A stretch of 64,000 bases of DNA from Agathobacter sp. (lineage in GTDB: Bacteria > Bacillota > Clostridia > Lachnospirales > Lachnospiraceae), in assembly GCA_022772675.1 (NCBI GenBank), contig JALEZW010000060.1, positions 62,001 through 126,000 on the forward strand. The letters run 5' to 3'. Of the stretch, positions 47,328-63,958 are shown piece after piece. The position numbers were made by a program, and so were the translations under genes. Numbering within the stretch: position 1 is the stretch's first letter; each line of letters opens with the position of its first letter. Below the pieces are notes generated by a model that made no database searches, was not told the DNA's origin, and saw only the letters and a list, made by a program, of their open reading frames with translations.

Positions 47328-48662
47328 ATGGAAGAGAATCAGAAAACATTAACGCAGCTTTTTATTCCCATCTGTTTAGAAACATTATTATACATGCTGG
47401 CAGGCATGGTGGATACCTTAATGCTTTCATCGGTTGGCGACCAGGCAGTGGGAGCAGTAGGAACAGCAAATACCTATATCGGGATTTTCATTATCATGTT
47501 TTCCATTATTTCATCCGGAATGGTAGCAGTTATGACGCAGAATATCGGTGCCGGCAGACCGGGTGTTGCCTATCAGGCAAGACAGTTGGGACTTGCATTT
47601 AACGCTGTACTTGGAATTCTGATGTCCTTTTTTTTATTTTTCTGTTCGGGAACGATTCTCTCTGTGGTAGGAATTGCAGATGCACTTCGCGCGCCGGCAG
47701 AAACTTACCTTAAAATTGTTGGAGGCAGCTGTATTTTAAATGCATTGATTCCGATTTTTTCCAGCTATATGCGCGCCTTTGGTTTTACAAAGGAACCGTT
47801 GTATGCAACAGTAACCGGCAATGTGATCAATCTGATCTTAAATGCCTTTTTTCTGTTTTCCCTGCGTATGGGCGTAAAGGGGGTTGCAATTGCTACTGTA
47901 ATTTCCCGTGTGATCAATCTGGTTATGGTCGCTGCAATGGCGTCTGTTCTGGTAAAGGCAAAACAGAATCCGGAACGGATGTCAAACAGAAGCGTTCTGT
48001 TTCAGATTATAAAAATCGGATTTCCATCTGCCTGTGAGACGGCATTATATAACATTGCAATGACACTGGTGATCCGCTTTTTAAATAAGATGGATGCCCA
48101 GGGACTGAATGTAACGGCGCGCTCCTATGCGATGCAGATTACCAATTTTTCCTACTGCGTGGGTGCCGCACTGGCGCAGGCCAATGCCATTATGACAGGC
48201 TGGAGGATTGGTGCCAGGCAATTTGAAGAATGTGACCGTGGTACGAGAAAAGCGGCAATCATCGGTGTGATTGTTGCAGCCTGTATGGAAGCTGTGATTG
48301 CACTTTGTTCCGGCTGGATTATGCGGCTGTTTACGGATGATCCACAGATGATAGCACTGGTTGGAAAACTTCTTTTCATTGATATCGTTCTGGAAATGGG
48401 AAGGGTTATGAATCTGGTGTATGGAAATGCGCTTAAAACCAGCGGAGATGCTGTATTTCCGGTTGTGATGGGAGCTGTATTCATGTTCTTGTGCGCAGTG
48501 GGAGGCACATGGCTTTTTGGTGTGAAATTAGGACTTCTGGCGGTTGGTACCTACATAGGTCTTGCCAGTGACGAATGTGTCAGGGCTGTGGGCATGTATT
48601 TACGCTGGCGAAGCGGCAAGTGGAAGGAAAAAAGGTTGATTGAGGAGGATATGTTGAAATAA
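47328..48662 (+). CDS. MATE-family multidrug efflux transporter
   Basis: A 444-aa protein with twelve predicted helices in two repeated halves. The N-terminal segment LFIPICLETLLYMLAGMVDTLMLSSVGDQAVGAVG is typical of NorM/DinF-type antiporters driven by Na+ or H+. It lies opposite the AraC gene, starting behind GGGGAGGGAACAATC. Substrate unknown. Confidence 0.9.
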   Translation: MEENQKTLTQLFIPICLETLLYMLAGMVDTLMLSSVGDQAVGAVGTANTYIGIFIIMFSIISSGMVAVMTQNIGAGRPGVAYQARQLGLAFNAVLGILMSFFLFFCSGTILSVVGIADALRAPAETYLKIVGGSCILNALIPIFSSYMRAFGFTKEPLYATVTGNVINLILNAFFLFSLRMGVKGVAIATVISRVINLVMVAAMASVLVKAKQNPERMSNRSVLFQIIKIGFPSACETALYNIAMTLVIRFLNKMDAQGLNVTARSYAMQITNFSYCVGAALAQANAIMTGWRIGARQFEECDRGTRKAAIIGVIVAACMEAVIALCSGWIMRLFTDDPQMIALVGKLLFIDIVLEMGRVMNLVYGNALKTSGDAVFPVVMGAVFMFLCAVGGTWLFGVKLGLLAVGTYIGLASDECVRAVGMYLRWRSGKWKEKRLIEEDMLK

Positions 48663-48701
48663 AAGTCAATCGTAAAAGTCAATTATAAAATGAAATTTAC
48701 C

Positions 48702-48730
48702 TTGCACTCACTGGATTCCTGTGGTATTCT
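48702..48730 (+). promoter_or_regulatory. Candidate promoter of the alanine/glycine symporter gene
   Basis: TTGCAC (48702-48707), 17-bp spacer, TATTCT (48725-48730). An AATAC-GTTAAA-GTATT inverted repeat lies between it and the gene, a possible operator. A duplicated AAAAGTCAAT lies just upstream (48661-48682). Confidence 0.5.
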
Positions 48731-48779
48731 GTTTAATGTTGATTTAATACGTTAAAGTATTATTACCTGAAAGGAGACG

Positions 48780-50504
48780 ATGAAAATGAAAACATTATCG
48801 GATATTCTAGTGAGGATTGACGATTTTGTATGGGGACCGGTCATGCTGGTTCTTCTGGTTGGAACCGGAATTTTTCTCACAATCCGGACGAAGGCACTGT
48901 GCTGGAGAAATCTTCCGTATGCATTGAAAAGTGTGTTGAGCAAAGAGGCCCGTCAGAAGAAGGGAAAAGGGGATGTATCGCCGTTTTCGGCATTGACGAC
49001 AGCTCTTGCAGCCACCATCGGTACCGGTAATATTGTAGGTGTGGCAACAGCCATGGTTTCCGGAGGTCCGGGAGCATTAGTCTGGATGTGGATTTCCGCA
49101 GCCTTTGGCCTGACATCCAAATTCAGCGAGTGTATGCTGGCTATTAAATATCGTGAGGTAAACGAAAAAGGTGAGATGTCGGGCGGACCGATGTACACCA
49201 TGAAAAAGGGCTTTAAGAATAAAAAAGCCGGTGCCGTGCTGGGCTGGCTTTTTGCATTGTTTGCTGTGATTGCATCCTTTGGTATTGGGAATCTGACTCA
49301 GGGAAATTCCATTTCTTCTGCCTTACATGCCACATTCGGAGTTCCTACCTGGGTAACAGGAATTGTAATTACAATTCTTGCCATGTTAATAATTTTAGGC
49401 GGGATTAAGTCTATTTCCAAAGTATCCCAGGTGGTTGTGCCGGTGATGGCTCTATTTTACATAGTAGCCGGAATTATCATCATTTTTGGAAATATCAGAA
49501 ATGTGCCGGCGGGTGTTGTCATGATTTTTAAAATGGCATTCTCCCTTCAGGCAGTGGGCGGAGGACTCTGTGGAAGTCTTGTGGCTTCCATGATGAATGC
49601 CATGCGTTTCGGTGTTGCCCGGGGTGTATTTTCCAATGAGGCCGGTATGGGGTCTGCAGCAATTACAGCAGCTGCTGCATCCACAAACGATCCGGTCCGT
49701 CAGGGCTATATCAACATGACGGGAACTTTCTGGGATACCATTGTGGTATGTACCATTACAGGACTGTGTATTGCAAGCTCCGGTGTGCTTGGAACTACGG
49801 AAACAGCTTCCTCCGGAAGTTATGCCTATGAGGCGCAGGAGACAGATGCTGCAGGACTTTCTTTCACTCTGGCAGATGGAGATAAAACTACGACTACCAG
49901 TTACGATGTTACAGATGTTTCCTATGATGGAAAAAATCAGAAACTTGTGATGACTCTTGCAAAGGGGGATGAGAAAACGCTTCTGACCAAAGAGGAAAAA
50001 ATAGAAAATGCAGCGGATACAGAATTCTCACAGAATATGGATTCTTACCTGCCGGGTACATGGAAGGATGATTCCGGCAATGAATATATCCTTTCCAGGG
50101 ACGGTACGCTGGAATACCGTGAACTTTTAGTCGGTTCTGCCCTTACCATTGCAGCGTTTAAGACGGTTCTGGGGCAGCCGGGAGCATGGCTGGTCTGCAT
50201 TGCCATCGCACTGTTTGCCTTCTCCACAATCCTTGGCTGGGAGTATCATGGGGAAAAAGCTTTCGAGTATCTGTTTCAGACCCATAAATTTAATATGGTT
50301 TATCGGATTCTTTTTTCCCTGGTGGTATATCTCGGTGCAACCACAACACTTAAGATTGCATGGAACTTCTCCGATATTGCCAATGCTCTGATGGCGATTC
50401 CCAACCTCATCTGCCTTCTGGCATTAAGTGGTGTGATTGTGGAGGAGATGAACCGCTATCAGAAAGTGATTGAAGCAGAGAAGGCAGCGAAGAAGACGAA
50501 ATAA
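48780..50504 (+). CDS. Alanine/glycine:cation symporter family protein with large insertion
   Basis: A 574-aa AGCS transporter; family members are usually about 450-480 aa. The core is clear: PFSALTTALAATIGTGNIVGVATAMVSGGPGALVWMW, then GGPMYTMKKG, then ARGVFSNEAGMGSAAITAAAA, and the last helices with FAFSTILGWEYHGEKAFEYLF. About 100 extra polar residues (about 340-443) sit in an external loop late in the protein. Coupling is probably to Na+, in keeping with the Na+-type ATP synthase. Confidence 0.9.
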   Translation: MKMKTLSDILVRIDDFVWGPVMLVLLVGTGIFLTIRTKALCWRNLPYALKSVLSKEARQKKGKGDVSPFSALTTALAATIGTGNIVGVATAMVSGGPGALVWMWISAAFGLTSKFSECMLAIKYREVNEKGEMSGGPMYTMKKGFKNKKAGAVLGWLFALFAVIASFGIGNLTQGNSISSALHATFGVPTWVTGIVITILAMLIILGGIKSISKVSQVVVPVMALFYIVAGIIIIFGNIRNVPAGVVMIFKMAFSLQAVGGGLCGSLVASMMNAMRFGVARGVFSNEAGMGSAAITAAAASTNDPVRQGYINMTGTFWDTIVVCTITGLCIASSGVLGTTETASSGSYAYEAQETDAAGLSFTLADGDKTTTTSYDVTDVSYDGKNQKLVMTLAKGDEKTLLTKEEKIENAADTEFSQNMDSYLPGTWKDDSGNEYILSRDGTLEYRELLVGSALTIAAFKTVLGQPGAWLVCIAIALFAFSTILGWEYHGEKAFEYLFQTHKFNMVYRILFSLVVYLGATTTLKIAWNFSDIANALMAIPNLICLLALSGVIVEEMNRYQKVIEAEKAAKKTK

Positions 50505-50533
50505 AATTTTGAATCGATATATGAGGAACCAAT

Positions 50534-51415
50534 TTATTTCTGGAATCTACCGCTTGCCCCGCATGGTAACACGAGTCCATTGGAGGAAACCGGAAGTCCA
50601 ATTTCATCAGCGTTGATGGTGCCGTGGTATTTGCCCAAAACGGTATTCATCATATAGGACAGTACAGCAGGCTGCAGTCCTGTGGTGTAGGAATTGATCA
50701 GGAAAAATAATGGTTCATCCGTGAGAATCTGACTGCAGAGCTGTACCAGCGGATAAACGCAGTCCTCAATTTTCCAGATTTCCCCCTTCGGCCCCCGTCC
50801 GTAGGATGGGGGATCCATGATGATGGCATCGTAGTGGTTGCCCCGGCGGATTTCCCGCTCCACAAATTTCACGCAGTCATCCACCAGCCAGCGGATCGGT
50901 GCGCCACCAAGTCCGGAGGAAAGAGCATTTTCCTTCGCCCAGGTCACCATGCCCTTAGAGGCATCCACATGGGTTACCTGCGCACCCGCTGCCGCTGCTG
51001 CACAGGTGGCACCTCCGGTATAGGCAAAGAGGTTTAAGACCTTAACGTTATGTCCTTTATTCACTTCATCCTGAATCAGTTTCGAAAACCAGTCCCAGTT
51101 TGCAGCCTGCTCCGGAAAAAGCCCCGTGTGCTTGAAGCTGAAGGGCTTTAAGTGGAAGGTCAGTTCCTTCTTAATAGGAAGAGAGTAGTGAATCTGCCAT
51201 TCCTTCGGCAGGTCAAAAAACTCCCATTCCCCGCCGCCCTTTGAGCTGCGATGGTAATGGCCGTTCATTTTCTTCCAGCCCTTTTCTGATTTCGGGGTGT
51301 CCCAGATGACCTGTGGGTCCGGACGTACCAGAAGATATTTCCCCCATCGCTCCAGCTTTTCGCCTTTGGAGCAGTCAATTACTTCATAATCATTCCATCT
51401 ATTAGCTAACCACAT
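50534..51415 (-). CDS. SAM-dependent methyltransferase, RlmI/RlmK-like
   Basis: A 293-aa class I methyltransferase. The SAM-binding motif is KVLNLFAYTGGATCAAAAAGAQVTHVDASKGMVTWAKENA; the catalytic-type motif is DAIIMDPPSYGRGPKGE. These match the rRNA (cytosine-5 or guanine-N2) methyltransferases, but the N-terminal PUA domain is absent. The ATG at 51415 follows AAGGAG by 9 bases; an earlier ATG at 51445 exists. The end of the broken antitoxin frame overlaps its start. Confidence 0.87.
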   Translation of the reverse strand: MWLANRWNDYEVIDCSKGEKLERWGKYLLVRPDPQVIWDTPKSEKGWKKMNGHYHRSSKGGGEWEFFDLPKEWQIHYSLPIKKELTFHLKPFSFKHTGLFPEQAANWDWFSKLIQDEVNKGHNVKVLNLFAYTGGATCAAAAAGAQVTHVDASKGMVTWAKENALSSGLGGAPIRWLVDDCVKFVEREIRRGNHYDAIIMDPPSYGRGPKGEIWKIEDCVYPLVQLCSQILTDEPLFFLINSYTTGLQPAVLSYMMNTVLGKYHGTINADEIGLPVSSNGLVLPCGASGRFQK

Positions 51416-51668
51416 TTTTGTGTACTCCTTTTTCATGGACAACATCTTTTCCTTCCTTGTGCTGCCGGATGGAAGTCATCAGATGCTCATAATTTTACTG
51501 ATTGCTGACAAGATGCAGTGTTTCCATTAAACTGTCATAGGAACTTTGAGACATGATGACCATGTTTTCATCTTTCCGTGTGACAATGAGTGTTTCTTTG
51601 TCTTCGGCAACGCGGTCAAAATAGCCTTTCATGTTGTAGCGGAAATTTGCATAATTTACTGCCAGCAT
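51402..51668 (-). pseudogene. Phd/YefM-family antitoxin interrupted by an in-frame stop, no toxin partner
   Basis: The ATG at 51668 lies behind a perfect CTAGGAGGAAATTTT. The first 57 residues (MLAVNYANFRYNMKGYFDRV, then ETLIVTRKDENMVIMSQSSYDSLMETL) are a Phd/YefM DNA-binding half. A TAA (51495-51497) ends it. The same frame then continues NYEHLMTSIRQHKEGKDVVHEK to a TAA at 51402, giving the full family length of 88 residues with one internal stop. The lost part is the toxin-binding tail. Next comes a methyltransferase, not a RelE/YoeB toxin. The 57-aa product could still bind DNA. Confidence 0.85.
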
Positions 51669-51703
51669 AAAATTTCCTCCTAGTTCTGCTTTCTGTACTA
51701 AAT

Positions 51704-51732
51704 ATTATATGGTGCGATTTTCTGTACGTCAA
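51704..51732 (-). promoter_or_regulatory. Promoter of the antitoxin-methyltransferase unit
   Basis: Minus strand: TTGACG (51727-51732), 17-bp spacer, TATAAT (51704-51709). GTACAGAAA occurs twice, once in the spacer and once after the -10, as expected for a self-bound antitoxin promoter. Confidence 0.75.
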
Positions 51733-51750
51733 TAGCATGAACAAAAGACC

Positions 51751-51779
51751 TTGCAAATATTTCATTCGTCTATTATAAT
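51751..51779 (+). promoter_or_regulatory. Promoter of the BlaI-BlaR1-ABC operon
   Basis: TTGCAA (51751-51756), 17-bp spacer, TATAAT (51774-51779). The -10 box lies inside the first operator palindrome. Confidence 0.8.
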
Positions 51780-51800
51780 AGATACGACTATTGAAATAGA
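51769..51800. promoter_or_regulatory. Paired BlaI-type operators
   Basis: TCTATT-AT-AATAGA (51769-51782, perfect palindrome) and ACTATT-GA-AATAGA (51787-51800), centres 18 bp apart. They cover the -10 and the predicted transcription start, so binding would block transcription. Confidence 0.7.
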
Positions 51801-51821
51801 CAGATAAAAGGAGGAGAACAA

Positions 51822-52208
51822 ATGGATTTTTTAACAGGAGAATTAAGTACTTGTGAGTCAATGATTATGAAGGTAATCTGGGATGCACAGGAGGATATTG
51901 CAGTACAGGAACTTATCCGGGAACTGGGTATCCGTTTCGATAAGCATTATGCCCGGACAACAGTAGTCACCTTTTTGCACAAGATGGCGGAGAAGGGGTA
52001 TGTGAGTACCTACCGGAAAGGAAAGGCGGCTTTTGTTCATGCCGAAAAGAGTGAGAAAGATTACAAAAATAAACTGCTGCGGGAACAGACAGACTTCTGG
52101 TTCGGGGGAAAACCATCAAAACTGATTGCTTCCCTCTGTGAATCCCGGAAATTGTCAAAAGAGGAGATTAGCAAAATAAAGGAGCTGCTTGCGGATGTGG
52201 ATGAGTGA
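51822..52208 (+). CDS. BlaI/MecI/CopY-family repressor
   Basis: A 128-aa winged-helix repressor; BlaI-type proteins are inactivated by proteolysis after their BlaR1 partner senses a signal. ELSTCESMIMKVIWDAQEDIAVQELIREL and the helix KHYARTTVVTFLHKMAEKGYVSTYRKGK are the signature; the rest is a helical dimer domain. AAAGGAGGAGAACAA precedes the ATG. It overlaps the BlaR1-like gene by 14 bases. Confidence 0.9.
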   Translation: MDFLTGELSTCESMIMKVIWDAQEDIAVQELIRELGIRFDKHYARTTVVTFLHKMAEKGYVSTYRKGKAAFVHAEKSEKDYKNKLLREQTDFWFGGKPSKLIASLCESRKLSKEEISKIKELLADVDE

Positions 52209-53529
52209 TATCATGTATGCCCTTTGCTTTACAACTGTAACAGGAACTGTGGTGACGGTTGTATGGTTTATGATGGCGGGAGTTCTTGAACGTTTAGGCT
52301 TTTTGAATATTACATATCATCTGCTGAAGTTTCTGCTGTGCTTCTGGATTGTTCCGATTGCATACGGAATTTTATGCAGTTTAAATTCTTGGGGATATCG
52401 GTGGTATGGATGCCTTTTTGAACCAACGCCCGTTATACTTCGGCTGACACAGATTTTTCTTGGAGTCTGGGGAGTGGGGTTAGTCCTTGGAGCAGGATTC
52501 TACATGGTGGAGAGAATCCGGTTGAAAAGGCTCCTTGCAGTATTAAAACCCTGCAGGGAGACCTGGATGCAGGAGTTGTTTACAGATGTCTGTGGAGAAT
52601 TGGGGATTTCTCCGGCAAAGGTGTCCCTGCAGCAGTCAGAAGGGGAGGCAATTCCTATGGTTGTTGGAGTCGCACATCCGAAAGTTATACTTCCGGTAAA
52701 AGAGTATGGGAAAGAAGAACTTCGCATTATATTCCTGCATGAACTGACACATGTCAGGCATAAGGATCTACTGTTCAAGCACCTCGTACTCATAGTGGCA
52801 TCATTGCAGGCCTTTAATCCGATAGTGTGGTGGTATGTTCATTTAGTGGATGTCTGGAGTGAATATGCCTGTGACGAATCTGTCTGCCGCAGGATAGGCA
52901 AAGTGAAAGAGTATTACGAAGTGCTGATGCAGATGGCGGTAAAAAACTCCCGGATTTCGGGAGTGGCAGCCGGTCTGTTAGAAAGGAAGAGTAAAATGAG
53001 AAGAAGAATTGAGCATGTAAAGAAAACTTTCAGGGCAAAGAAAAAATCAAAAGTATTGGCTGCGTTAGTGACGGGGTGTATCTTTTTAGTAAGTACAGGA
53101 ACCGTCTGCATGGCATCTGTGGCACTGGCGGATGGAGTAAATGCTGTTACGCGGCAGACAGAGGTTTACATAGAAGATGAAGGGAAAGAATTAGTTGAGT
53201 ATGTGGAACCGGCTTCGGTGGAGGAACATGTTCGGGTTGTATCTGCCGAAGATGATGCACAGATAAGTCTGTTGGACAATGGGAGTGTGAATGTTTCATG
53301 GAGTATATCGTCAGGAACTTTGAAAAAAGGGACTTCGTTTCGTGCCGAAAAGGGACAGTCTGTTATTATTGGATTAGGGATTAGTCCTAAAGATAAGAAG
53401 ATAAAGGTAGGATTAATACAACCGGATGGAACTTATCGTTATGTAATTTCAGATAACGCAATTGCACATGTTTTTGAAATTAATCAAAGTGGCTATTATT
53501 GTTTTTTGTTAAGAATGATAACAATTTAA
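52195..53529 (+). CDS. BlaR1/MecR1-like M56 family metallopeptidase
   Basis: A 444-aa membrane sensor-protease. Four N-terminal helices carry the cytoplasmic zinc protease; the zinc motif is FLHELTHVRHKDLL (HExxH), with the distant ligand in EYACDESVCRRIG. A fifth helix (about 285-305) precedes a C-terminal extracellular segment of about 130 residues. That segment has no serine beta-lactamase-like domain, so the signal is not a covalently bound beta-lactam. The start is ATG 52195 behind AAAGGAG; TTG 52189 and ATG 52201 are alternatives. Confidence 0.88.
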   Translation: MWMSDIMYALCFTTVTGTVVTVVWFMMAGVLERLGFLNITYHLLKFLLCFWIVPIAYGILCSLNSWGYRWYGCLFEPTPVILRLTQIFLGVWGVGLVLGAGFYMVERIRLKRLLAVLKPCRETWMQELFTDVCGELGISPAKVSLQQSEGEAIPMVVGVAHPKVILPVKEYGKEELRIIFLHELTHVRHKDLLFKHLVLIVASLQAFNPIVWWYVHLVDVWSEYACDESVCRRIGKVKEYYEVLMQMAVKNSRISGVAAGLLERKSKMRRRIEHVKKTFRAKKKSKVLAALVTGCIFLVSTGTVCMASVALADGVNAVTRQTEVYIEDEGKELVEYVEPASVEEHVRVVSAEDDAQISLLDNGSVNVSWSISSGTLKKGTSFRAEKGQSVIIGLGISPKDKKIKVGLIQPDGTYRYVISDNAIAHVFEINQSGYYCFLLRMITI

Positions 53530-53558
53530 CGGTTAGGGTTGAGGGGAGTTACGCACTT

Positions 53559-54095
53559 TTGGGTGGAATCCTGTTGGTGCTGATTTATGCTGTTATTGTA
53601 GGGGTTGCTGAGCTGGGGATTACATACAATCCCTTTTTGCGGGATGTGGTTGAGTATTATACGAATACAGAATCTTACAAAGTAAGTTATAACGCATCTA
53701 TTCGCTGGGGACGTCATATCCTGTGTGATTCGCTTAATTATGTAGCGTGGAGGCTGCTGGGATGTGTACAATTTTTTGGTATGGGGGTATTGTATGGGGC
53801 AATTTCAGGAGTAATTGCTTTTATGACGAGTAATCGTGTTCTGGTATATGCAGCACCGGTTCTGATTTTGGGACTGTGGGAAAAATGGCTTTATGCAGTC
53901 ATTCTGCTGTTTCAAAAGAATGAGATGGTTACGGAGACACTTCGGTATTTCTTTATTAAACCCTATGTTGGGAGTTTTGGATATTTGATTTTATATGGAT
54001 TTCTGGTGTTCCTTATTGTTTTGGTACTATGCATCGCAAAAGTACTGGAACCGAAAATTATGGAACGGTATCGGGAAGGAGGAAGTGAACGGTGA
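53559..54095 (+). CDS. Hypothetical membrane protein, ABC-2 permease-like
   Basis: About 178 aa with four or five membrane helices. The open frame extends back to a TTG at 53499 inside the BlaR1-like gene, but those codons have no ribosome binding site. TTG 53559 follows GAGGGGAG and removes the polar lead-in. Setting between BlaR1 and another permease, in an operon ending in an ABC ATPase, makes it a transporter subunit. It is shorter than usual ABC-2 permeases, so an N-terminal loss is possible. Confidence 0.6.
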   Translation: MGGILLVLIYAVIVGVAELGITYNPFLRDVVEYYTNTESYKVSYNASIRWGRHILCDSLNYVAWRLLGCVQFFGMGVLYGAISGVIAFMTSNRVLVYAAPVLILGLWEKWLYAVILLFQKNEMVTETLRYFFIKPYVGSFGYLILYGFLVFLIVLVLCIAKVLEPKIMERYREGGSER

Positions 54096-55000
54096 TCAGA
54101 GAACAGCTTAAAAGCACAATTCAAAAACCGTCGGTCTGTGTCAAAATGGCATTGATTACAGCACTTTTTATCCCGTCATTGTTGGAACAGATTGATATTA
54201 CAACTACATATGCAGAAAGTTTTGGGGATCGTGGCAATATGACCGTAATTGTACTTCTGATTCATATCTTTAACTATTTTGCGTATTATATGGATATTTT
54301 TTTCGTGGGGTTTCTGCTGTTGATTCCGGATATTGTGAAGGATGAGTATCTGGAAAGAAAGAGTATCATGTGCTGTGGGACACGAAAAACTGCCGGGCAG
54401 TGTGCAGTCATCAGAATTTTAAGTTTTACCATACTGTATGTCCTCTGGTTCGTGGTCCTGACAGTCGTGATAGGCGGAGTGGGACTTCGGGATTTCTCCC
54501 TTGAATGGCCAAAGTTTCTTCAGATTATGCAGAGAAAAATTCAAATGCAGGGTATGTATGCAACGGGGGTTGTTAATTTGCCCATCGGAACACTGGAGTA
54601 TCCGACAGTGGTAGTTTTTGCCCTGATGCTGCTTCGGAGCGTGCTGGGCTTTATTTTTCTCGGGTTATTGGCATATCTGGTTATACAGTTAACGGGAAAA
54701 ACACAGTGGGGGCTTGGCACAATTTTAATTCTGGTTACGGTGACAGCTTTTATCAATAACTGGGGTGGCATTTTTAGTTATTGCGATGCTTCTAAGCCCA
54801 AGGGACAACAAAAGGTGTACTTGGATGTAATCAAGGGAACTATTCTGCCACTTTTTACTTCACGCAGAGTGACAGATGATTTCATGCCATGGATGAAGTT
54901 TGGAATTGCAGCAGGGGCAGTCCTTAGCGTTCTGACAGCTTTGGGAATTATACTTTATTATAGGAAAGGGGATTTGGGTGATGCAGATCGAGATGAATAA
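54092..55000 (+). CDS. ABC transporter permease-like membrane protein
   Basis: A 302-aa protein with six predicted helices and a large external loop (about 140-180). It starts at GTG 54092, overlapping the previous stop. No strong family motif was recognised. The ATPase gene overlaps its end by 20 bases, so both permeases and the ATPase are translationally linked. Export or detoxification of an envelope-active peptide is inferred from the BlaI/BlaR1 control. Confidence 0.7.
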   Translation: MIREQLKSTIQKPSVCVKMALITALFIPSLLEQIDITTTYAESFGDRGNMTVIVLLIHIFNYFAYYMDIFFVGFLLLIPDIVKDEYLERKSIMCCGTRKTAGQCAVIRILSFTILYVLWFVVLTVVIGGVGLRDFSLEWPKFLQIMQRKIQMQGMYATGVVNLPIGTLEYPTVVVFALMLLRSVLGFIFLGLLAYLVIQLTGKTQWGLGTILILVTVTAFINNWGGIFSYCDASKPKGQQKVYLDVIKGTILPLFTSRRVTDDFMPWMKFGIAAGAVLSVLTALGIILYYRKGDLGDADRDE

Positions 55001-55619
55001 TGTTAATAAAACCGTGAAGGGAATACCGCTCCTGACAGATATTTCTCTGACCATGGATTCCGGAAAAATCTATGGCTTTACCGGGGACAATGGAAGTGGA
55101 AAAACAGTACTGTTCAAGGTACTGCTCGGGTTGATGAAGAAGACCTCCGGAACAATTCTTATAGATGGAGAGGAACAAAAGGATTTGATGCAGGATGTGG
55201 GATTTATCATTGAGCGTCCGGAATATATTCCATATTATTCCGCATACAAAAACCTGGAAATAATTGCAGCGTACCGTAAGCGGGCGGACAGGGAGCGGAT
55301 ACGCACGGTTCTGGAAATGTTCGGACTGAATCCGGATGACAAAAAGCAGGTGGGAAAGTATTCTCTGGGAATGAAACAGAAGCTTGCCCTTGCCATGGCA
55401 TTTCTTGAGAACCCGAAAATTCTTATTCTGGATGAACCCTTAAGCGCACTGGATGCAGATTCTGTTACCGATGCAAGGCAGCGGATTTTAGAAGAGAAGG
55501 AGCATGGGAAGCTGGTGCTGGTTGCCTCCCATTATGCAGAGGATATCCGTTCACTGTGCGATGAGGTTTTCAGAATGAAAGATGGTAAAATTGTGGAAAC
55601 CAACAGTTCATGTGGATGA
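54981..55619 (+). CDS. ABC transporter ATP-binding protein
   Basis: A 212-aa ATPase. Walker A GDNGSGKTVLFKVL, Q-loop-region DVGFIIERPEYIP, signature YSLGMKQKLALAMAFL, Walker B ILILDEPLSALD and switch His in VASHYAEDI are all present. The variant signature SLGMKQ is typical of bacitracin- and lantibiotic-type exporters. ATG 54981 is chosen over the adjacent GTG 54978. Last gene of the operon. Confidence 0.92.
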   Translation: MQIEMNNVNKTVKGIPLLTDISLTMDSGKIYGFTGDNGSGKTVLFKVLLGLMKKTSGTILIDGEEQKDLMQDVGFIIERPEYIPYYSAYKNLEIIAAYRKRADRERIRTVLEMFGLNPDDKKQVGKYSLGMKQKLALAMAFLENPKILILDEPLSALDADSVTDARQRILEEKEHGKLVLVASHYAEDIRSLCDEVFRMKDGKIVETNSSCG

Positions 55620-55724
55620 GAAAATTTTATATCTTTTTCGTAACAGATTATGGGCTGAGTAACGGATATTTTTATATTGCAGATTGACTTAATTAAGGGC
55701 AGCCGGCAATTTCATTGCTGGTAA

Positions 55725-56049
55725 TGGGCATATACAGAAGAAATAAGTATGTACTGCCCATTATTCTGCTGAATACGTTTAAAGTTTCTCCTGAAATGGG
55801 CATATATAGTATGGATTGATGTACTCTGCCCATATTTATGAAAGAATTTCAAATTTCTATTGGCAGATGGACATATTTGGGGCAGAGATGAGAGATATCA
55901 TCCATATATGCCCAATTTAGAGCAGGAAGTCTACATGTGAGGGGATGTAATTGGGCAGTGGTGGTAATTAAATCATGCATATGACCATATAAGGAATATA
56001 TCATGCGTAATAATGGGCAGGTCACCGTCCGTTTGACAAATGGTTGCTA
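55725..56049. repeat. 36-nt hairpin units, family A (five units)
   Basis: Units at 55725-55760, 55797-55832, 55879-55914, 55952-55987 and 56014-56049, each 36 nt. Ends are TGGGCA and TGCCCA, one mismatch in the third and fourth, right arm poor in the fifth. Interiors differ. The first two fit best reversed, so that every unit reads TGGGCAG...ATATGCCCA. Gaps are 36, 46, 37 and 26 nt. Confidence 0.7.
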
Positions 56050-56282
56050 TTCACAGTCCATGGGCGTTACTGAGTTCTTTCACCTTACTGTTTTGTCACT
56101 CACGTAACATGAAATTAGATTTTCAAAACGCCTCTAAACCATTGATTTATGGGGCCCGGCTGCTAGAGGGTTTTGAACCAGAGCTTAAGTGGCATCACGC
56201 ACATAACCATGAAGATATTTCGCGGATATTGATATTCAAAAGTACGGGAAAGCCACTTCGAACCAGATATCTTCAGAAAAAT

Positions 56283-56512
56283 GGGACATATAGACATTTT
56301 TTGCTTCCCTATGTCCCCCAACCACCCAAATGGAAGTGCAGATCGGTCATGAGGGGATATATAGGGTGATTTTCGGTGCCGGATGTCCCACTTTCCCGAA
56401 AAATCGGGACATGGCGAAAGGATTTTTGTTGTATATGTCCCCAGGCACAAAATTTAGGGGAAAAATCAAGGAAAATGGGACATAGGGATAAGATTTTTCA
56501 TCTATATGTCCC
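56283..56512. repeat. 36-nt hairpin units, family B (four units)
   Basis: Units at 56283-56317 (35 nt), 56354-56389, 56406-56441 and 56477-56512. Ends are GGGACAT and ATGTCCC; the second has GGGATAT on the left. The last three share an ATTTT core in the middle. Gaps are 36, 16 and 35 nt. End sequence and length relate them to family A. Confidence 0.7.
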
Positions 56513-56620
56513 AGTCAGAGAATATGTCTATTTCTCAATTGGGATTTTATTTATGGTTTTGCGAATGTATGGGGCGGGGGCTGGACAGATATAAAAACAG
56601 ATAAAAAATTAAAAAAGTTC

Positions 56621-56649
56621 TTGCTTTTTTGGTAAAGACCATGTATAAT
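56621..56649 (+). promoter_or_regulatory. Promoter of the S10-spc operon
   Basis: TTGCTT (56621-56626), 17-bp spacer, TATAAT (56644-56649), giving a 5' leader of about 370 bases. Confidence 0.8.
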
Positions 56650-56654
56650 ATGCA

Positions 56655-57024
56655 TTGCTGTGGCATGATAGCAATGAAGCGTGAGGTTGCTGCCTTCGTG
56701 GCAGGTTTTCCGTGGAGCGAATGTCAAGTTAGGAAACTGACGACAAGTCACTGTACAAACAACATGGTCTACCAGAGGTAGAAACAACGTGTGAAGAACT
56801 GCGAGGGATGCGCAGGAGAGAGCGTATCACTTTGCCGAGATAGGGGCGATAAGGAATCCGGTGCAAGCGCCACCTTACCGCAAGGGTCATAAGGAATCTG
56901 TCGCAAGCGACCACCCTTATGACAGGCGATGCATCGGAGATGCACCGCAAGGACACACACGGGAATGTGTACAGTCACCGCTTGTCGTACTATTCAAAAG
57001 TGCGAAAAGGAGGCGACTTTTTTT
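56655..57024 (+). promoter_or_regulatory. S10 operon 5' leader, structured
   Basis: It holds a series of hairpins. Two tandem similar ones carry GCAAGCG cores: 56848-56877, and 56887-56922 with perfect TCATAAGG / CCTTATGA arms. Then come TGCATC-GGA-GATGCA (56931-56945) and ACACA...TGTGT (56954-56969). A ribosomal-protein-binding leader is expected before rpsJ (L4 in E. coli and some Bacilli), but which protein binds here is unknown. Confidence 0.55.
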
Positions 57025-57342
57025 ATGGCAAGTCAAGTAATGAGAATCACTCTCAAGGCATATGATCACGAATTAGTTGATTCATCTGCTAAGAAAATCA
57101 TCGAAACTGTAAAGAAGAACGGATCACAGGTGAGCGGACCAGTGCCGCTTCCAACTAAGAAGGAAGTTGTTACAATTCTTAGAGCAACTCACAAGTATAA
57201 GGATTCCCGTGAGCAGTTCGAGCAGAGAACTCATAAGAGACTGATTGATATCGTTACACCGACTCAGAAGACAGTTGATGCTTTATCCCGTCTTGAGATG
57301 CCGGCCGGTGTTTACATCGATATCAAGATGAAACAGAAGTAA
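57025..57342 (+). CDS. rpsJ: 30S ribosomal protein S10
   Basis: A 105-aa protein, also a partner of NusB/NusG in antitermination. The S10 core begins [20 protein letters not shown], preceded by MASQV. The ATG at 57025 follows AAAGGAGGCGAC; the longer open frame upstream runs through leader hairpins and is rejected. First gene of the S10 operon. Confidence 0.96.
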
Positions 57343-57547
57343 TGTAATTGTGTAAATCCTGAATTGTTTATATACATTCTAGGATGAACGGTTCCGCTAC
57401 TCCGCAGCATAAGCGTAAGTCGGGCATGAAGCGTTCCGCTGTAGAAGGTGTTAAGTTTTCGCAGAAAACTTAACATGTAGCGTTGGTCCATTTGCCGAAG
57501 GCAAATTCTGCATGGGCTGATGTTCAAGATAAAACAGGAGGTTAAAA
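57343..57547 (+). promoter_or_regulatory. Hairpin-rich spacer between rpsJ and rplC
   Basis: 205 bases without an ORF. Two perfect hairpins: GTTAAGTTTTC-GCA-GAAAACTTAAC (57450-57474) and ATTTGCC-GAA-GGCAAAT (57490-57506). Neither has a T-tract, so transcription should pass through. Confidence 0.55.
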
Positions 57548-58231
57548 ATGAAGAAAGCGATTTTAGCAACAAAAGTCGGAATGACACAGATCTTCAATGC
57601 AGACGGCGTATTAGTGCCGGTTACTGTATTACAGGCTGGTCCATGCGTTGTTACTCAGATCAAGACAGTTGAGAATGATGGTTACAGCGCAGTTCAGGTT
57701 GGTTTTACTGACAAGAAAGAAAAGATTGTCAATAAAGATGCCAACGGAAAGAAAGAAGTTCGCAACAGACATGGTGTAAACAAGGCTGAGATGGGCCATT
57801 TCGCCAAGGCTGGTGTATCAGGTAAGAGATATGTTCGTGAGTTCAAGTTTGAGAACGCAGACGAATATAAGCTGGCAGATGAAATCAAGGCTGACATCTT
57901 CGCAGAAGGAGATAAGGTTGATGTAACTGCTATTTCAAAAGGTAAAGGCTTTCAGGGTGCTATTAAGAGATTAGGCCAGCACAGAGGACCTATGGCTCAT
58001 GGTTCCAAGTTCCATCGTCATCAGGGTTCCAACGGTGCATGTTCTTCTCCAAGCCGTGTATTCAAGGGAAAAGGAATGCCCGGACACATGGGAAGCGTAA
58101 AGGTTACAACTCAGAATCTTGAGGTTGTAAGAGTTGACGCAGAGAACAACTTACTGTTAATCAAAGGTGCTGTTCCGGGAGCGAAGAAAGCTCTCATTAC
58201 AGTAAAAGAAACCGTAAAGGCCGCTAAATAG
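57548..58231 (+). CDS. rplC: 50S ribosomal protein L3
   Basis: A 227-aa protein near the peptidyl transferase centre. It starts [20 protein letters not shown]; the loop signature [18 protein letters not shown] and [11 protein letters not shown] are conserved. AGGAGGTTAAAA precedes the ATG. Confidence 0.97.
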
Positions 58232-58260
58232 TACAGGAATAAGAAAGGAGGAACTTTACG

Positions 58261-58881
58261 ATGGCTAAAGTAGCTGTTTACAATATGGAAGGCAAAGAAG
58301 TCGATTCTATCGAATTAAGCGATTCCATTTTCGGCGTAGAAATCAATGAGCATTTAGTTCATATGGCTGTGCTTCAGCAGCTTGCAAATAAGCGTCAGGG
58401 AACTCAGAAAGCAAAGACACGTTCTGAAGTTCGCGGCGGTGGAAGAAAACCATGGAGACAGAAGGGAACCGGTCATGCAAGACAGGGATCTACAAGAGCT
58501 CCACAGTGGACCGGTGGTGGAATGGTATTTGCTCCGGTACCGAGAGATTACTCTTTCAAACTGAATAAGAAAGAGAAGAGAGCAGCTTTAAAGTCTGTCC
58601 TTACTTCTAAAGTAGCAGATGGAAAATTCATCGTAGTGGATGAGTTAAAGCTGGATGAAATTAAGACAAAGAAGTTCGTTCAGGTTCTGAACAACCTTAA
58701 GGTTGAGAAGGCACTCGTTGTATTAAATGATATGGATACAAACGTAATCAAATCAGCAGCAAATCTTCCGACTGTTAAGACTGCCCAGACTAACGAACTG
58801 AATGTATTTGATGCATTAAAGTATGATACAGTAGTGGCTACAAAGGCTGCTGTTGCAACAATCGAGGAGGTGTATGCATAA
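58261..58881 (+). CDS. rplD: 50S ribosomal protein L4
   Basis: 206 aa. The exit-tunnel loop is intact: [29 protein letters not shown]. In E. coli L4 represses the S10 operon. 29 bases after rplC behind AAAGGAGG; its stop overlaps the rplW ATG by one base. Confidence 0.97.
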
Positions 58882-59180
58882 TGGCAAACGTACAGTATTA
58901 TGATGTAATCCTCAAACCGGTAGTAACTGAGAAGAGCATGACTGCAATGGGCGAAAAGAAGTATACATTTCTTGTTCATCCGGATGCAAATAAGACCATG
59001 ATCAAAGAAGCAGTTGAGAGAATGTTCGAAGGAACAAAGGTTGCCAAGGTTAATACCATGAACTGCGAAGGCAAGAATAAGAGACGCGGTATGGTAACAG
59101 GCAAGACTGCAAAGACAAAGAAGGCTATCGTTCAGCTGACAGAGGACAGCAAGGACATTGAAATTTTCAGTGGACTTTAA
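58881..59180 (+). CDS. rplW: 50S ribosomal protein L23
   Basis: A 99-aa protein at the tunnel exit, docking site for trigger factor and [35 protein letters not shown] is typical. One-base overlap with rplD. Confidence 0.96.
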
Positions 59181-59311
59181 TATTTAGGAGATAGCAGTTA
59201 AACGACAGGCGGGAAGCCCTGCTTGAAGAAAACTCCGCAGGCAGGCGCATATGCCATGCATGAGTGCATGACAATAGTCGTGATAATGAAAACGTTGAAA
59301 GGAGAAAAACA
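59181..59311 (+). promoter_or_regulatory. Spacer between rplW and rplB with hairpins
   Basis: 131 bases. CATGCA-TGAG-TGCATG (59253-59268) is the clearest hairpin. An in-frame ATG at 59264 could extend rplB, but it lies in the hairpin without a ribosome binding site. Confidence 0.4.
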
Positions 59312-60154
59312 ATGGGAATCAAATCATATAACCCATATACACCTTCCAGAAGAAATATGACCGGTTCTGATTTCTCTGAGATTACAAAGAAAAAACCTGA
59401 GAAATCACTTACAACTTCTATTAAGAAGAATGCCGGCCGTAATAATCAGGGAAAAATTACAGTTAGACACCATGGTGGTGAAAACAAGAGAAAATACAGA
59501 ATCATCGATTTCAAGAGAAATAAAGATGGGATTCCTGCAAAGGTAATCGGAATCGAGTATGATCCTAACAGAACAGCAAACATTGCACTGATCTGCTATG
59601 CAGACGGTCAGAAGGCATATATCCTTGCTCCTGCCGGATTAACAGACGGCATGGTAGTTATGAACGGACCGGAAGCAGAAGTAAGAGTTGGAAACTGCCT
59701 GCCACTTGAGAATATCCCGGTTGGTACACAGATTCATAACATCGAGCTTTTACCGGGCAAGGGTGGACAGATGGTTCGTTCCGCAGGTCTTTCTGCACAG
59801 CTCATGGCAAAAGAAGGAAAGTATGCAACACTTCGTCTTCCTTCCGGTGAGATGAGAATGGTTCCGATTCAGTGTAGAGCAACAGTTGGTGTTGTAGGAA
59901 ATGGTGACCACAACCTTGTAAATATTGGTAAGGCTGGACGTAAGCGTCACATGGGTGTTCGTCCGACAGTTCGTGGATCCGTTATGAACCCGAATGACCA
60001 TCCACACGGTGGTGGTGAAGGTAAGGCTCCGGTAGGACGTCCGGGACCATGTACACCATGGGGCAAGCCTGCACTTGGTTTAAAGACCAGAAAGAAGAAC
60101 AAGCAGTCTAATAAGCTTATCGTAAGAAGAAGAGACGGTAAAGCGATCAAATAA
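59312..60154 (+). CDS. rplB: 50S ribosomal protein L2
   Basis: A 280-aa primary 23S-binding protein needed for subunit joining and peptidyl transfer. Conserved [16 protein letters not shown] and the C-terminal [31 protein letters not shown] with the essential His. ATG 59312 follows GAAAGGAGAAAAACA. Confidence 0.98.
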
Positions 60155-60170
60155 TTAGGAGGTTGAAGAA

Positions 60171-60452
60171 ATGGCACGTTCACTTAAAAAAGGACCGTTT
60201 GCTGATGAAAGCTTACTCAAAAAGGTAGATGCAATGAACGCTTCCGGTGACAAGTCAGTTATTAAGACTTGGTCCCGCCGTTCCACAATTTTCCCTTCCT
60301 TCGTTGGACACACATTTGCTGTTCATGACGGAAGAAAGCATGTACCGGTATATGTAACAGAAGATATGGTTGGACATAAACTCGGTGAGTTCGTTGCAAC
60401 AAGAACTTACAGAGGACATGGAAAAGACGAGAAGAAATCAGGCGTAAGATAA
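60171..60452 (+). CDS. rpsS: 30S ribosomal protein S19
   Basis: 93 aa. [19 protein letters not shown] and [34 protein letters not shown] are the S19 signature. 16 bases after rplB behind TAGGAGG. Confidence 0.97.
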
Positions 60453-60477
60453 TAATTAGTGAAAGGAGGTTTCATCC

Positions 60478-60864
60478 ATGGCAAAAGGACATAGATCCCA
60501 GATCAAGAGAGAGAGAAACGAAGTAAAGGACAACAGACCTTCAGCTAAGTTATCTTATGCTAGAGTGTCCGTACAGAAAGCATGCTTCGTATTAGATGCA
60601 ATTCGCGGTAAGGACGTTGCAACAGCACTTGCAATCGTATCCTACAATCCGAGATATGCTTCAAGCGTAATAGAGAAATTATTAAAATCAGCCATCGCTA
60701 ATGCTGAGAATAACAACGGAATGAAAGCAGAAAACCTTTATGTGGCAGAGTGCTACGCAAATAAGGGACCAACAATGAAGAGAATTCATCCGAGAGCACA
60801 GGGTAGAGCTTACAGAATCGAGAAGAGAATGAGCCACATTACAATCGTGCTTGATGAAAGATAG
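60478..60864 (+). CDS. rplV: 50S ribosomal protein L22
   Basis: A 128-aa protein lining the exit tunnel. The beta-hairpin region GPTMKRIHPRAQGRAYRIEKRMSHITIVL is intact, without the changes known for macrolide resistance. GAAAGGAGG precedes the ATG. Confidence 0.96.
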   Translation: MAKGHRSQIKRERNEVKDNRPSAKLSYARVSVQKACFVLDAIRGKDVATALAIVSYNPRYASSVIEKLLKSAIANAENNNGMKAENLYVAECYANKGPTMKRIHPRAQGRAYRIEKRMSHITIVLDER

Positions 60865-60873
60865 GAGGCAATC

Positions 60874-61530
60874 ATGGGACAGAAAGTTAATCCTCATGGC
60901 TTAAGAGTCGGCGTTATCAAAGACTGGGATTCTAAATGGTATGCAGATGGCGATTTCGCTGATTACTTAGTGGAAGATTACAATATCAGAACATTTTTAA
61001 AGAAAAAGTTATATGCAGCCGGTGTTTCTAAGATTGAGATCGAGAGAGCATCTGACCGCGTTAAGGTTATCATTTATACTGCTAAGCCGGGTATCGTAAT
61101 CGGTAAGGGCGGTGCTGAGATCGAGAAGATCAAGGCAGAAGTTCAGAAGCTTACAGATAAGAAGTTGGTAGTAGATATCAAAGAGGTTAAGAGACCGGAC
61201 CGTGATGCACAGCTGGTAGCTGAGAACATTGCATTACAGCTTGAGAACCGTGTTTCTTTCCGTAGAGCAATGAAGTCCTGCATGGGCCGTGCAATGAAGA
61301 GCGGTGCAAAGGGAATTAAGACTTCCTGCTCCGGACGTCTTGGCGGTGCCGATATGGCTCGTACAGAGTTCTACTCTGACGGTACGATTCCGCTTCAGAC
61401 ACTTCGTGCAGATATCGATTATGGATTCGCTGAGGCTGATACCACATACGGCAAGGTTGGCGTAAAGGTATGGATCTACAAAGGCGAAGTACTTCCTAAG
61501 AAGGGTAATAAGGAAGGAGGAGCTCAGTAA
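60874..61530 (+). CDS. rpsC: 30S ribosomal protein S3
   Basis: 218 aa with the KH domain ([22 protein letters not shown]) and the C-terminal domain with [32 protein letters not shown]. It lies 9 bases after rplV behind GATAGGAGG and forms the mRNA entry site with S4 and S5. Confidence 0.97.
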
Positions 61531-61532
61531 TT

Positions 61533-61970
61533 ATGTTAATGCCAAAGAGAGTAAAACATCGTAAACAGTTCCGTGGTTCCATGGCTGGAAAGGCTACAAG
61601 AGGAAATAAGATCACATACGGTGAGTATGGTATCGTAGCATTAGAGCCATGCTGGATTAAAGCAAACCAGATTGAGGCAGCCCGTGTCGCTATGACAAGA
61701 TACGTAAAGCGTGGTGGTAAGATCTGGATCAAGATTTTCCCGGAGAAGCCTGTAACACATAAGCCTCTGGGTGTTCGAATGGGTAAAGGAAAAGGTGCCC
61801 TTGAGTATTGGGTAGCTGTTGTAAAACCAGGTAGAGTATTATTTGAAATCTCCGGTGTTCCGGAAGACGTAGCTAAAGAAGCTTTACGTCTTGCTACACA
61901 TAAATTACCTTGCAAATGTAAAGTAGTTTCACGTGCAGATTTAGAAGGCGGTGAGTCAAATGAAAACTAG
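61533..61970 (+). CDS. rplP: 50S ribosomal protein L16
   Basis: 145 aa. [25 protein letters not shown] and [31 protein letters not shown] are the L16 signature. It starts 2 bases after rpsC; the GGAAGGAGGAG inside rpsC serves as ribosome binding site. It overlaps rpmC by 11 bases. Confidence 0.97.
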
Positions 61971-62169
61971 TGCATATTTAGAAGAATTAAAGTCACTTAC
62001 TGTTGCAGATTTACAGGCTCAGTTAGTAGATGCGAAAAAGGAACTTTTCAATTTAAGATTCCAGAATGCAACCAATCAGTTAGATAACACAGCCAGAATT
62101 AAGGAAGTTCGCAAGAATATTGCTAGAATTCAGACTGTTATCACCGAAAAAGCTAGCGTTGCTGAATAA
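61960..62169 (+). CDS. rpmC: 50S ribosomal protein L29
   Basis: A 69-aa helical-hairpin protein at the tunnel exit: [34 protein letters not shown], then [21 protein letters not shown] 61960 is preferred; an in-frame GTG at 61951 is the ribosome binding region (GGCGGTGAG). Confidence 0.95.
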
Positions 62170-62202
62170 TTTCCAATTCTATAAAGAAAGGAGACTTCGG
62201 TC

Positions 62203-62460
62203 GTGGAAGAAAGAAATCTTAGAAAAACACGTGTAGGTGTTGTTGTAAGTGACAAGATGGATAAGACAATCGTTGTAGCTGTAAGAAACAACGAGAGACA
62301 TCCTCTGTACAACAAGATCGTTAAAAAGACTTATAAGTTAAAGGCTCATGACGAGAACAATGATGCTAAGATCGGTGATACCGTCAGAGTTATGGAAACA
62401 AGACCATTATCTAAAGACAAGAGATGGAGACTTGTAGAAATTATGGAAAGAGCAAAATAA
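62203..62460 (+). CDS. rpsQ: 30S ribosomal protein S17
   Basis: An 85-aa OB-fold protein. [24 protein letters not shown] and [21 protein letters not shown] are conserved. It starts at GTG 62203 after AAAGGAGACTTCGGTC. Confidence 0.96.
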
Positions 62461-62478
62461 TAGAAGGAGGCTACAAGC

Positions 62479-62847
62479 ATGGTACAGCAGGAAAGCAGAC
62501 TCAGAGTTGCGGACAATACTGGCGCGAAAGAGTTACTTGTTATCCGCGTAATGGGTGGATCTACCAGAAGATATGCGAACATTGGTGATGTCATCGTTGC
62601 AACTGTTAAAGATGCAACACCAGGCGGTGTTGTTAAAAAGGGCGATGTTGTCAAGGCCGTAGTTGTTCGTTCAGTAAAGGGTGCCCGTCGTAAAGATGGT
62701 TCCTATATTAAGTTTGATGAGAACGCAGCAGTTATTATCAAGGACGACAAGACTCCGAGAGGAACCCGTATCTTTGGACCAGTAGCTCGTGAGCTTCGTG
62801 AGAAGCAGTTCATGAAGATTGTTTCTCTGGCTCCGGAAGTATTATAG
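62479..62847 (+). CDS. rplN: 50S ribosomal protein L14
   Basis: A 122-aa protein near the factor-binding site. It starts [39 protein letters not shown] and the C-terminal [23 protein letters not shown] are complete. GAAGGAGG precedes the ATG. Confidence 0.97.
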
Positions 62848-62858
62848 GAGGAACGAAG

Positions 62859-63170
62859 ATGGCAAGTATGAAGATCAAAAAAGGCGATATGGTAAAAGTT
62901 ATTGCCGGAAGAGATAAGGATAAAGAGGGCAAGGTTATTGCCGTAAACAGAAAGAAAAATACACTCCTCGTTGAAGGCGTTAACATGGTTACCAAGCATG
63001 CAAAGCCAAGCATGGCAAACCAGCAGGGCGGAATCATCCATCAGGAAGCACCGATTGATGCATCCAATGTTATGTATCTTCACAAGGGTCAGGCTACCCG
63101 CGTAGGTTTCAAGATGGACGGAGACAAGAAAGTCCGTTACGCTAAATCAACAGGCGATGTTATCGATTAA
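62859..63170 (+). CDS. rplX: 50S ribosomal protein L24
   Basis: A 103-aa assembly initiator with an N-terminal KOW motif ([28 protein letters not shown]). ATAGGAGGAACGAAG precedes the ATG, overlapping the rplN stop region by ribosome binding site only. Confidence 0.96.
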
Positions 63171-63192
63171 TTGAAGAGAGGAGGAAAAAACA

Positions 63193-63732
63193 TTGAGTAG
63201 ACTGAAAGAACAGTACGAAAATGAGATCAAAGATGCAATGATCAAAAAGTTCGGTTACAAGAATCCAATGGAGGTTCCGAAGCTTGACAAGATCGTAGTT
63301 AACATGGGAGTTGGTGAGGCTAAGGAGAACGCAAAGGTTCTTGAGGCAGCTGTAAAGGATATGGAGACTATTACCGGTCAGAAGGCTGTTACAACAAAGG
63401 CTAAGAAGGCAATCGCAAACTTCAAGATCAGAGAGAATATGCCAATCGGATGTAAGGTTACCTTACGTGGTGAGAAGATGTATGAGTTCGCTGATCGTCT
63501 GATCAACCTTGCATTACCGCGTGTACGTGACTTCCGTGGTGTAAATCCGAACGCATTTGACGGACGTGGAAATTACGCACTTGGTATCAAAGAGCAGATT
63601 ATCTTCCCTGAGATTGAGTATGACAAGGTAGATAAGGTTCGCGGTATGGATATTATTTTTGTCACAACTGCAAAGACAGATGAAGAGGCACGTGAGTTAT
63701 TAACTCTGTTCAATATGCCATTCGCAAAGTAA
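63193..63732 (+). CDS. rplE: 50S ribosomal protein L5
   Basis: A 179-aa 5S rRNA-binding protein: [19 protein letters not shown], then [32 protein letters not shown]. It uses a TTG start (63193) behind GAGGAGGAAAAAACA. Confidence 0.97.
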
Positions 63733-63748
63733 TCAGGAGGGAATTTTA

Positions 63749-63934
63749 ATGGCTAAGACAAGTATGAAAGTAAAACAGCAGCGTAAACCGAAATTCTCTA
63801 CTAGAGAATACACACGTTGCAGAATTTGTGGACGTCCACATTCAGTTTTAAGAAAATACGGAATCTGTAGAGTATGTTTCCGTGAGTTAGCTTATAAAGG
63901 TCAGATCCCAGGGGTTAAGAAGGCATCCTGGTAA
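63749..63934 (+). CDS. rpsN: 30S ribosomal protein S14, zinc type (type Z)
   Basis: A 61-aa short S14 with both Cys pairs of the zinc ribbon: [20 protein letters not shown]. The C-terminus is [18 protein letters not shown]. The longer zinc-free paralogue is not in this window. Confidence 0.97.
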
Positions 63935-63958
63935 AACGAAAAGGAGGAAATATACATC

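Follow-up and report, generated by a model that had tools for sequence, protein, structure and literature searches.

Two arrays of inverted-end units in the window, the 64-kb stretch of DNA analysed here (contig C1 of genome G000, positions 62001–126000; G000:C1:62001-126000), are probably non-autonomous, nuclease-less copies of palindromic arrays that are each specific to a nuclease, in a system working like REP/RAYT with an unrelated enzyme. By sequence comparison, window array B is assigned to the type found beside a G000 nuclease gene on contig C20, and window array A to the type found beside a nuclease gene of a relative (G022:C249).

Arrays and units in the window

Eight units of about 36 nt were present in the window, four in each of the arrays A (55725–55987) and B (56283–56512), both located between a gene resembling an ABC transporter ATPase (named by eye; ending at 55619) and the S10 leader (56666–56746; RF03136). 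The outward arm of A and B units extends as CATATA or CATATG, so that a unit has a direction, given below as right-facing or left-facing.

55725–55760, + strand: family A unit 1, right-facing, with the TGGGCATATA arm leading; perfect 6-nt arms TGGGCA/TGCCCA
55797–55832, + strand: family A unit 2, right-facing; perfect 6-nt arms; 72 nt after A unit 1
55879–55914, − strand: family A unit 3, left-facing; one arm base changed; 82 nt after A unit 2; ends in ATATATGCCCA
55952–55987, − strand: family A unit 4, left-facing; one arm base changed; 73 nt after A unit 3; ends in CATATGACCA
56283–56317, + strand: family B unit 1, right-facing, with the GGGACATATAG arm leading; perfect 7-nt arms GGGACAT/ATGTCCC
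56354–56389, + strand: family B unit 2, right-facing; one base changed in the left arm; 71 nt after B unit 1; its counterpart on contig C3 is intact
56406–56441, − strand: family B unit 3, left-facing; perfect 7-nt arms; 52 nt after B unit 2
56477–56512, − strand: family B unit 4, left-facing; perfect 7-nt arms; 71 nt after B unit 3
56211–56562, unstranded: stretch of array B with copies elsewhere in G000, one of 78% identity on C3 and a shorter one of 71% on C29

The initial annotation had counted nine units; eight were borne out, while a fifth A unit near 56014 had no right arm at the expected distance. The arrays of inverted-end units that it described were confirmed, shuffling of the surrounding sequence did not reproduce their perfect-arm units, and A units do occur in both orientations (units 1 and 2 right-facing, units 3 and 4 left-facing). 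Its statement that the interiors mostly differ was partly right, but overlooked the continuation of the outward arm.

In 1000 dinucleotide shuffles of the region 55600–56600, scored for units of 33–38 nt, the mean number of units with a perfect 7-nt arm starting with GGG was 0.007 vs. three observed, and none of the shuffles reached three. For perfect 6-nt arms starting with GGG, the shuffle mean was 0.034 vs. three observed, a number reached by one shuffle in 1000. Perfect 7-nt arms of any kind numbered 10 (in overlapping frames) compared to a shuffle mean of 0.62, and no shuffle reached 10. The remainder of the 64-kb window held no GGG-starting units of the same kind.

A unit consists of two inverted half-sites of about 7 nt and is not a conserved RNA hairpin. 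Across 34 arrays comprising 163 units, pairing beside the arms, both inside and outside, was similar to that of units reshuffled within their own array: the first inner position was paired in a fraction of 0.61 vs. 0.60 after reshuffling and the other ten positions differed by −0.06 to +0.04, a result that concerns non-arm positions only, as the arms had been preselected as perfect. At gathering score, Rfam matched only the S10 leader over window positions 50000–58000, and nothing on the arrays. Among the 15 B and 6 A loci scored for direction, 10 had units facing both ways, always with the right-facing ones first. Outside these two families, several arrays were one-directional and some were mixed (L132, L196, L204, and L128; direction assigned by similarity only), so that the order of right-facing before left-facing units is no general rule.

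Two further stretches of the window were noted near the arrays. A GGTTTTGCGAATGTATGGGG tail at 56555–56596, just past array B, recurs at six other listed places in G000 and also behind some dispersed arrays of genome G018; it is probably another dispersed repeat. Downstream of the S10 gene, at 57440–57500, a stretch ending in GCGTTGGTCCATTTGCCGAAG resembles left-flank repeats of the G018 copies L295, L299, and L306.

Unit spacing

The spacings of the units, about 52, 62, 72, and 82 bp, correspond roughly to whole helical turns. At the nuclease loci described below, centre spacings clustered at 51–54, 62–63, 71–73, and 81–83 bp. Counting one value per locus and spacing class and dropping values above 170 bp, the spacings (n = 64) had a best period of 10.5 (R 0.53), and none of 2000 uniform sets reached this R. 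Because multiples of 53 could drive such a periodicity, the test was repeated on spacings of 56–100 bp only (n = 20), which gave a best period of 10.55 and an R of 0.63, reached by 18 of 2000 uniform sets. All spacings up to 100 bp (n = 44) gave a best period of 9.9 and an R of 0.65 (0 of 2000). The period is thus not sharply fixed, as the best value varies between subsets, and the probabilities are inexact, since the loci share ancestry.

A putative nuclease family beside the arrays

In G018, two GGGACAT arrays flank an ORF of 273 aa, and its best homologues in G000 (74% identity) and G027 (58%), from a search of eight genomes, likewise lie beside GGGACAT arrays. The solo protein of about 270 aa has an N-terminal half of its own and carries the E-D-E motifs RSKSE, PDF, and WEH. 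In an alignment of 77 proteins (13 of 90 shorter than 200 aa having been dropped), the E of RSKSE, the D of PDF, and the E of WEH were 99–100% conserved, with a histidine (that of WEH) at the position of the (D/E)xK lysine of PD-(D/E)XK nucleases. Sequence searches of Pfam, NCBIfam, and PDB gave no match for the protein of about 270 aa. A homologous domain with 39% identity to the solo protein was modelled (pLDDT 86.6) with a restriction-endonuclease-like core fold (alpha-beta-beta-beta-alpha-beta); its structural matches were restriction-endonuclease-like folds, although Foldseek alone returned none at an E-value of 0.001 or better. The model and the active-site-like residues point to a putative nuclease of restriction-endonuclease-like fold.

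A profile built from ten members detected the family in 30 of the 62 genomes of the genus group (E 1e-10) and in 78 of 392 genomes of the order (E 1e-25), corresponding to 34 of 173 genera, within Lachnospiraceae and a second family of that order. A genome often carries several divergent copies, some with stop codons; the two members found in G000 lie on C20, with B arms, and on C72, with CGGGCGA arms. Eight plasmid records matched the nuclease query, none covering 80% of it, as did three phage records, among which an unannotated fecal contig of 4.2 kb covered 82% at 29% identity and had no array.

Viral contigs contained 10 relatives (L090–L099) in which the nuclease domain ends large helicase-like proteins. 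Only the C-terminal domain was matched in each case, within frames 747–1143 aa long that were mostly cut by the locus edge. Two scans with a single protein yielded no relative. The GGGACATATA pattern occurred in 16 viral stretches, always as a single unit except in L185, which had two.

Arrays of various arm sequences adjoin genes of this nuclease family. Besides the GGGACAT loci, more distant homologues adjoin arrays with TGGGCGAC, CGGGTCTG, CGGGCGA, or TGGGCGC arms. Each locus was scored by the maximum number of non-overlapping units of 26–44 nt with a common exact 6-mer arm within flanks of about 1.5 kb, incomplete gene copies included. At least three such units were found at 34 of 90 nuclease loci and at least two at 50 of 90 (21 and 33 of 63 in one set, 13 and 17 of 27 in the other). 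The test was negative at the other 40 of 90, including the homologues at G027:C5 and in G016, which have no clear array alongside. Of 93 independent controls, none reached three units and five reached two. These comprised 35 stretches (14 taken within the window, 13 on the same contigs, and eight Y1-transposase loci), of which none reached three and two reached two, and 58 of a set of 60 hpf and S10 loci; in the full set of 60, two loci reached at least three and five at least two, and the former two, namely the window array itself and the nuclease locus of G018, were left out.

The arms differ between nucleases and are alike where the nucleases are alike. Among the 34 arrays, 27 arm hexamers occur, some of which are one arm read in a shifted or complementary frame, and over the 31 loci with at least three units and an aligned protein, nuclease identity correlated modestly with arm similarity (Mantel r 0.27; 0 of 5000 permutations). 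The close pairs L192/L196 and L188/L189 scored as unlike owing to a complementary-frame reading of the arm. The nuclease gene at G022:C249 is flanked by TGGGCATATACAG units, the array type of window family A. No A-type nuclease was found in G000, whose assembly is 91% complete, and the A arrays of this genome therefore look orphaned. The initial annotation had seen no cas gene nearby, which is right as far as could be seen by eye in the ORF list for 48000–64000, although an unrelated nuclease family does adjoin the same repeats elsewhere in G000.

Dispersal of the two families

Both families are dispersed over G000 and its relatives. A search with the end motifs, as proposed in the initial annotation, found copies of each in G000 and in related genomes, contrary to its refuting condition of few or no further copies. 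The B motif GGGACAT-N18..28-ATGTCCC occurred as 20 units genome-wide in G000 (none in the backwards control) and was present in 12 of 60 genomes, with 19 units in G027, 10 in G018, and one in each of the other nine. G027 is Roseburia faecis M72, and the positions of its B units agree with NZ_CVRR01000003.1 and NZ_CVRR01000009.1. The C3 and C29 copies of the four-unit B module of the window lie in other gene neighbourhoods. A TGGGACATATA pattern matched 13 stretches in genome_contigs, from R. faecis, one Lachnospiraceae contig, and for the most part unrelated phyla, where the matches look like chance.

For family A, the short motif TGGGCA-N18..32-TGCCCA is by itself near chance, with 14 units in G000 vs. 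11 in the backwards control. With the inner TATA included (TGGGCATATA-N14..24-TGCCCA), five units were found in G000, and the control gave none in 62 of 62 genomes. This longer motif was present in 8 of 62 genomes, with 12 units each in G018 and G022 and one to two in each of five others. Two further A arrays in G022 have the order right-right-left-left with spacings of 81, 52, and 81.

Each of the 12 A units of G018 has a place of its own; four have the same sequence to the letter, and a further four deviate by one to two bases. As read from the alignment, a full four-unit module of about 230 nt is present at seven of these places and a shortened one at four, and one (L300) is a single unit. 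The module starts with TTTGGGCATATA and ends with CATATGTCCAA or a variant, which amounts to terminal inverted ends as in a transposon or MITE. The left flank is distinct in L300–L303 and wholly or partly shared in the other eight copies, so the module border rests on these four; no target-site duplication was seen by eye at them.

Other arm types also occur in G018. The G018 module at L295–L304 mixes the arm types GGGCATA, GGGCGTG, GGGATGT, and GGACATA, with some units lacking matching ends, perhaps through recombination between families. Near family B units on G018:C69 (L055, 708–886), a third arm type, TGGGCGC/GCGCCCA, forms an array with a period of 72 nt, and arms of this type also border a cut nuclease gene on G018:C54 (L089).

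Locus history

Comparison of occupied and empty junctions between an ABC-F gene and hpf shows gain or loss of the nuclease locus. Of 30 hpf loci, 16 have ABC-F no more than 1.5 kb upstream of hpf, at a distance of about 110 bp in G062 and G005. In G018, two arrays and a nuclease gene stand between ABC-F and hpf, and the nuclease gene has this position also in G000 and in G027 (the C5 copy); its presence there in three species points to an old locus rather than to frequent movement. In five of six relatives (G062, G005, G080, G010, and G027), a methyltransferase gene is found close to the leader upstream of S10, where nothing matches the ABC or BlaR genes, and the sixth (G033) has a distant BlaR match only; pattern searches of these stretches in the six relatives gave no A or B units. 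In the window, genes resembling, by eye, an ABC transporter and a pair of the BlaR/MecI kind occupy 51822–55619 upstream of S10, and are absent there in five of the six relatives.

Proposed mechanism and comparison with known systems

According to the reading that we favour, in which the window arrays are nuclease-less copies of nuclease-specific arrays, many nuclease genes carry their own array, with an arm sequence particular to the lineage. Nuclease subunits would bind the inverted arms of double-stranded DNA, and several helically phased units would be brought together. Nicking or cutting at the arrays may then lead to copying or recombination to new places and to tandem amplification, and the whole would be a selfish or domesticated nuclease-repeat system. 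A nuclease together with its DNA sites is the simplest account: the symmetric arms suggest a symmetric protein, the helical phasing suggests double-stranded DNA as the substrate, the match of arms to nuclease lineage suggests direct recognition, and the inverted outer ends and dispersed copies suggest mobility.

The closest model is provided by REP/BIME sequences and TnpA-REP (RAYT) in "REPtrons", described as short intergenic palindromes of which some lie beside a nuclease-type gene and others are dispersed, with repeat types pairing with different enzymes (PMC8266576). The arrays share with that description dispersed intergenic palindromic units, in part concentrated beside a nuclease-type gene, and types that vary with the enzyme. 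They differ in the enzyme, which is no Y1/HUH protein, in consisting of pairs of inverted arms about 36 nt long in helically spaced arrays instead of GTAG-preceded hairpins, and in a copy number of tens instead of hundreds. By eye, no GTAG tetranucleotide precedes the A and B units. A RAYT/REP system acting through a Y1 transposase was rejected on a search with PF01797, which had no matches in G000 or G018 and matched fragments only in G027.

TIGR-Tas arrays are stem-loop arrays with palindromes around short variable stretches (PMC12045711), in which a protein with a Nop domain accompanies an array that acts as RNA. The likeness is one of outline only, namely one protein gene adjoining tandem units with palindromic parts and variable interiors; here, in contrast, the arms are constant within a locus, units occur in both directions, and Pfam matches of ten family members up to an E-value of 0.1 included no Nop domain. 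CRISPR-Cas differs in that only arms of about 7 nt are constant here, in both directions, without identical direct repeats separated by unique spacers. Homing endonucleases (compared here were those of the Vsr-like EDxHD kind, such as I-Bth0305I) are not known to carry arrays of their own sites, and here intact arrays are kept at many places of one genome. With respect to Tn7-like ends and TnsA, the difference is that the array itself is the dispersed element.

Alternative explanations

The arrays could be operators or decoys, bound by the nuclease or another protein that controls the nuclease gene or is thereby held inactive, with the scattered arrays as remnants or extra sinks; we consider this unlikely. 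An array lies just upstream of the nuclease gene at several loci (e.g., G000:C20, G000:C72, and G062:C70) and helical phasing would suit cooperative binding, but arrays elsewhere lie downstream (G027:C9, G018:C33, and G035) or on both sides (G018:C3 and G442), and near-identical nuclease-less copies at many places need a way to spread. Still less probable is a role of the nuclease as an anti-phage effector, with arrays that mark or protect host DNA or hold the enzyme until infection. Such a role draws on the C-terminal domain, which matches the PADLOC candidates PDC-S68 in 10 of 10 proteins and PDC-S69 in 9 of 10. This nuclease domain is, however, all that the match covers, at the end of models of mostly about 1200 aa (289 aa for PDC-S69), compared to a solo protein of about 270 aa with its own N-terminal half, and array-only loci are scattered among ordinary genes, an arrangement hardly suggestive of a defence operon.

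We attach very little probability to transcription of the arrays into RNAs, either hairpin RNAs or guides as in TIGR-Tas and CRISPR, with the nuclease as effector. The 36-nt units with symmetric ends, the A and T runs that border some A units, and the resemblance to the palindromic TIGR arrays (PMC12045711) would fit, yet pairing beyond the arms was close to that of reshuffled units, both unit directions occur within one A or B array, the units are helically phased, and neither an Rfam match over the arrays nor a Nop domain in the ten proteins was found. Among the options named in the initial annotation, a processed RNA therefore fits poorly, given this lack of extra pairing, the two directions per array, the helical spacing, and the Rfam result, while binding sites belonging to a dispersed DNA family that is probably mobile fit best. 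Ordinary intergenic repeats, whether bidirectional terminators or REP-like palindromes, that came to lie near nuclease genes by accident are equally hard to credit. Intergenic the repeats are, as 13 of the 14 array or unit loci checked in G000 overlap no ORF of 120 aa or more; against an accidental association stand the frequency of at least three shared-arm units at nuclease loci (34 of 90 vs. 0 of 93 controls), the correlation between arms and nucleases, and the absence of a Y1 transposase match in G000. As a main role for the arrays, bidirectional termination is unlikely, with long loops and four units in both directions per array, despite the A and T runs beside some A units.

Implications

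The arrays and nucleases could well constitute, at about even chances in our estimation, a distinct class of bacterial selfish DNA, in which a single restriction-fold nuclease maintains and spreads its own arrays of phased half-sites with no recognised transposase or guide RNA, and of which many lineages with differing sites evolved side by side in gut Lachnospiraceae. No description of such a nuclease-repeat system was found in the open-access literature searched; relative to that literature, this may be an undescribed enzyme-and-repeat system that spreads like selfish DNA. If so, co-evolution of a nuclease with dispersed palindromic repeats would be known for two unrelated types of enzyme, and a class of intergenic repeats found in a major group of human gut bacteria would be explained. 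The numerous natural pairings of nuclease and arm would lend themselves to studying how a restriction-fold enzyme shifts its DNA specificity.
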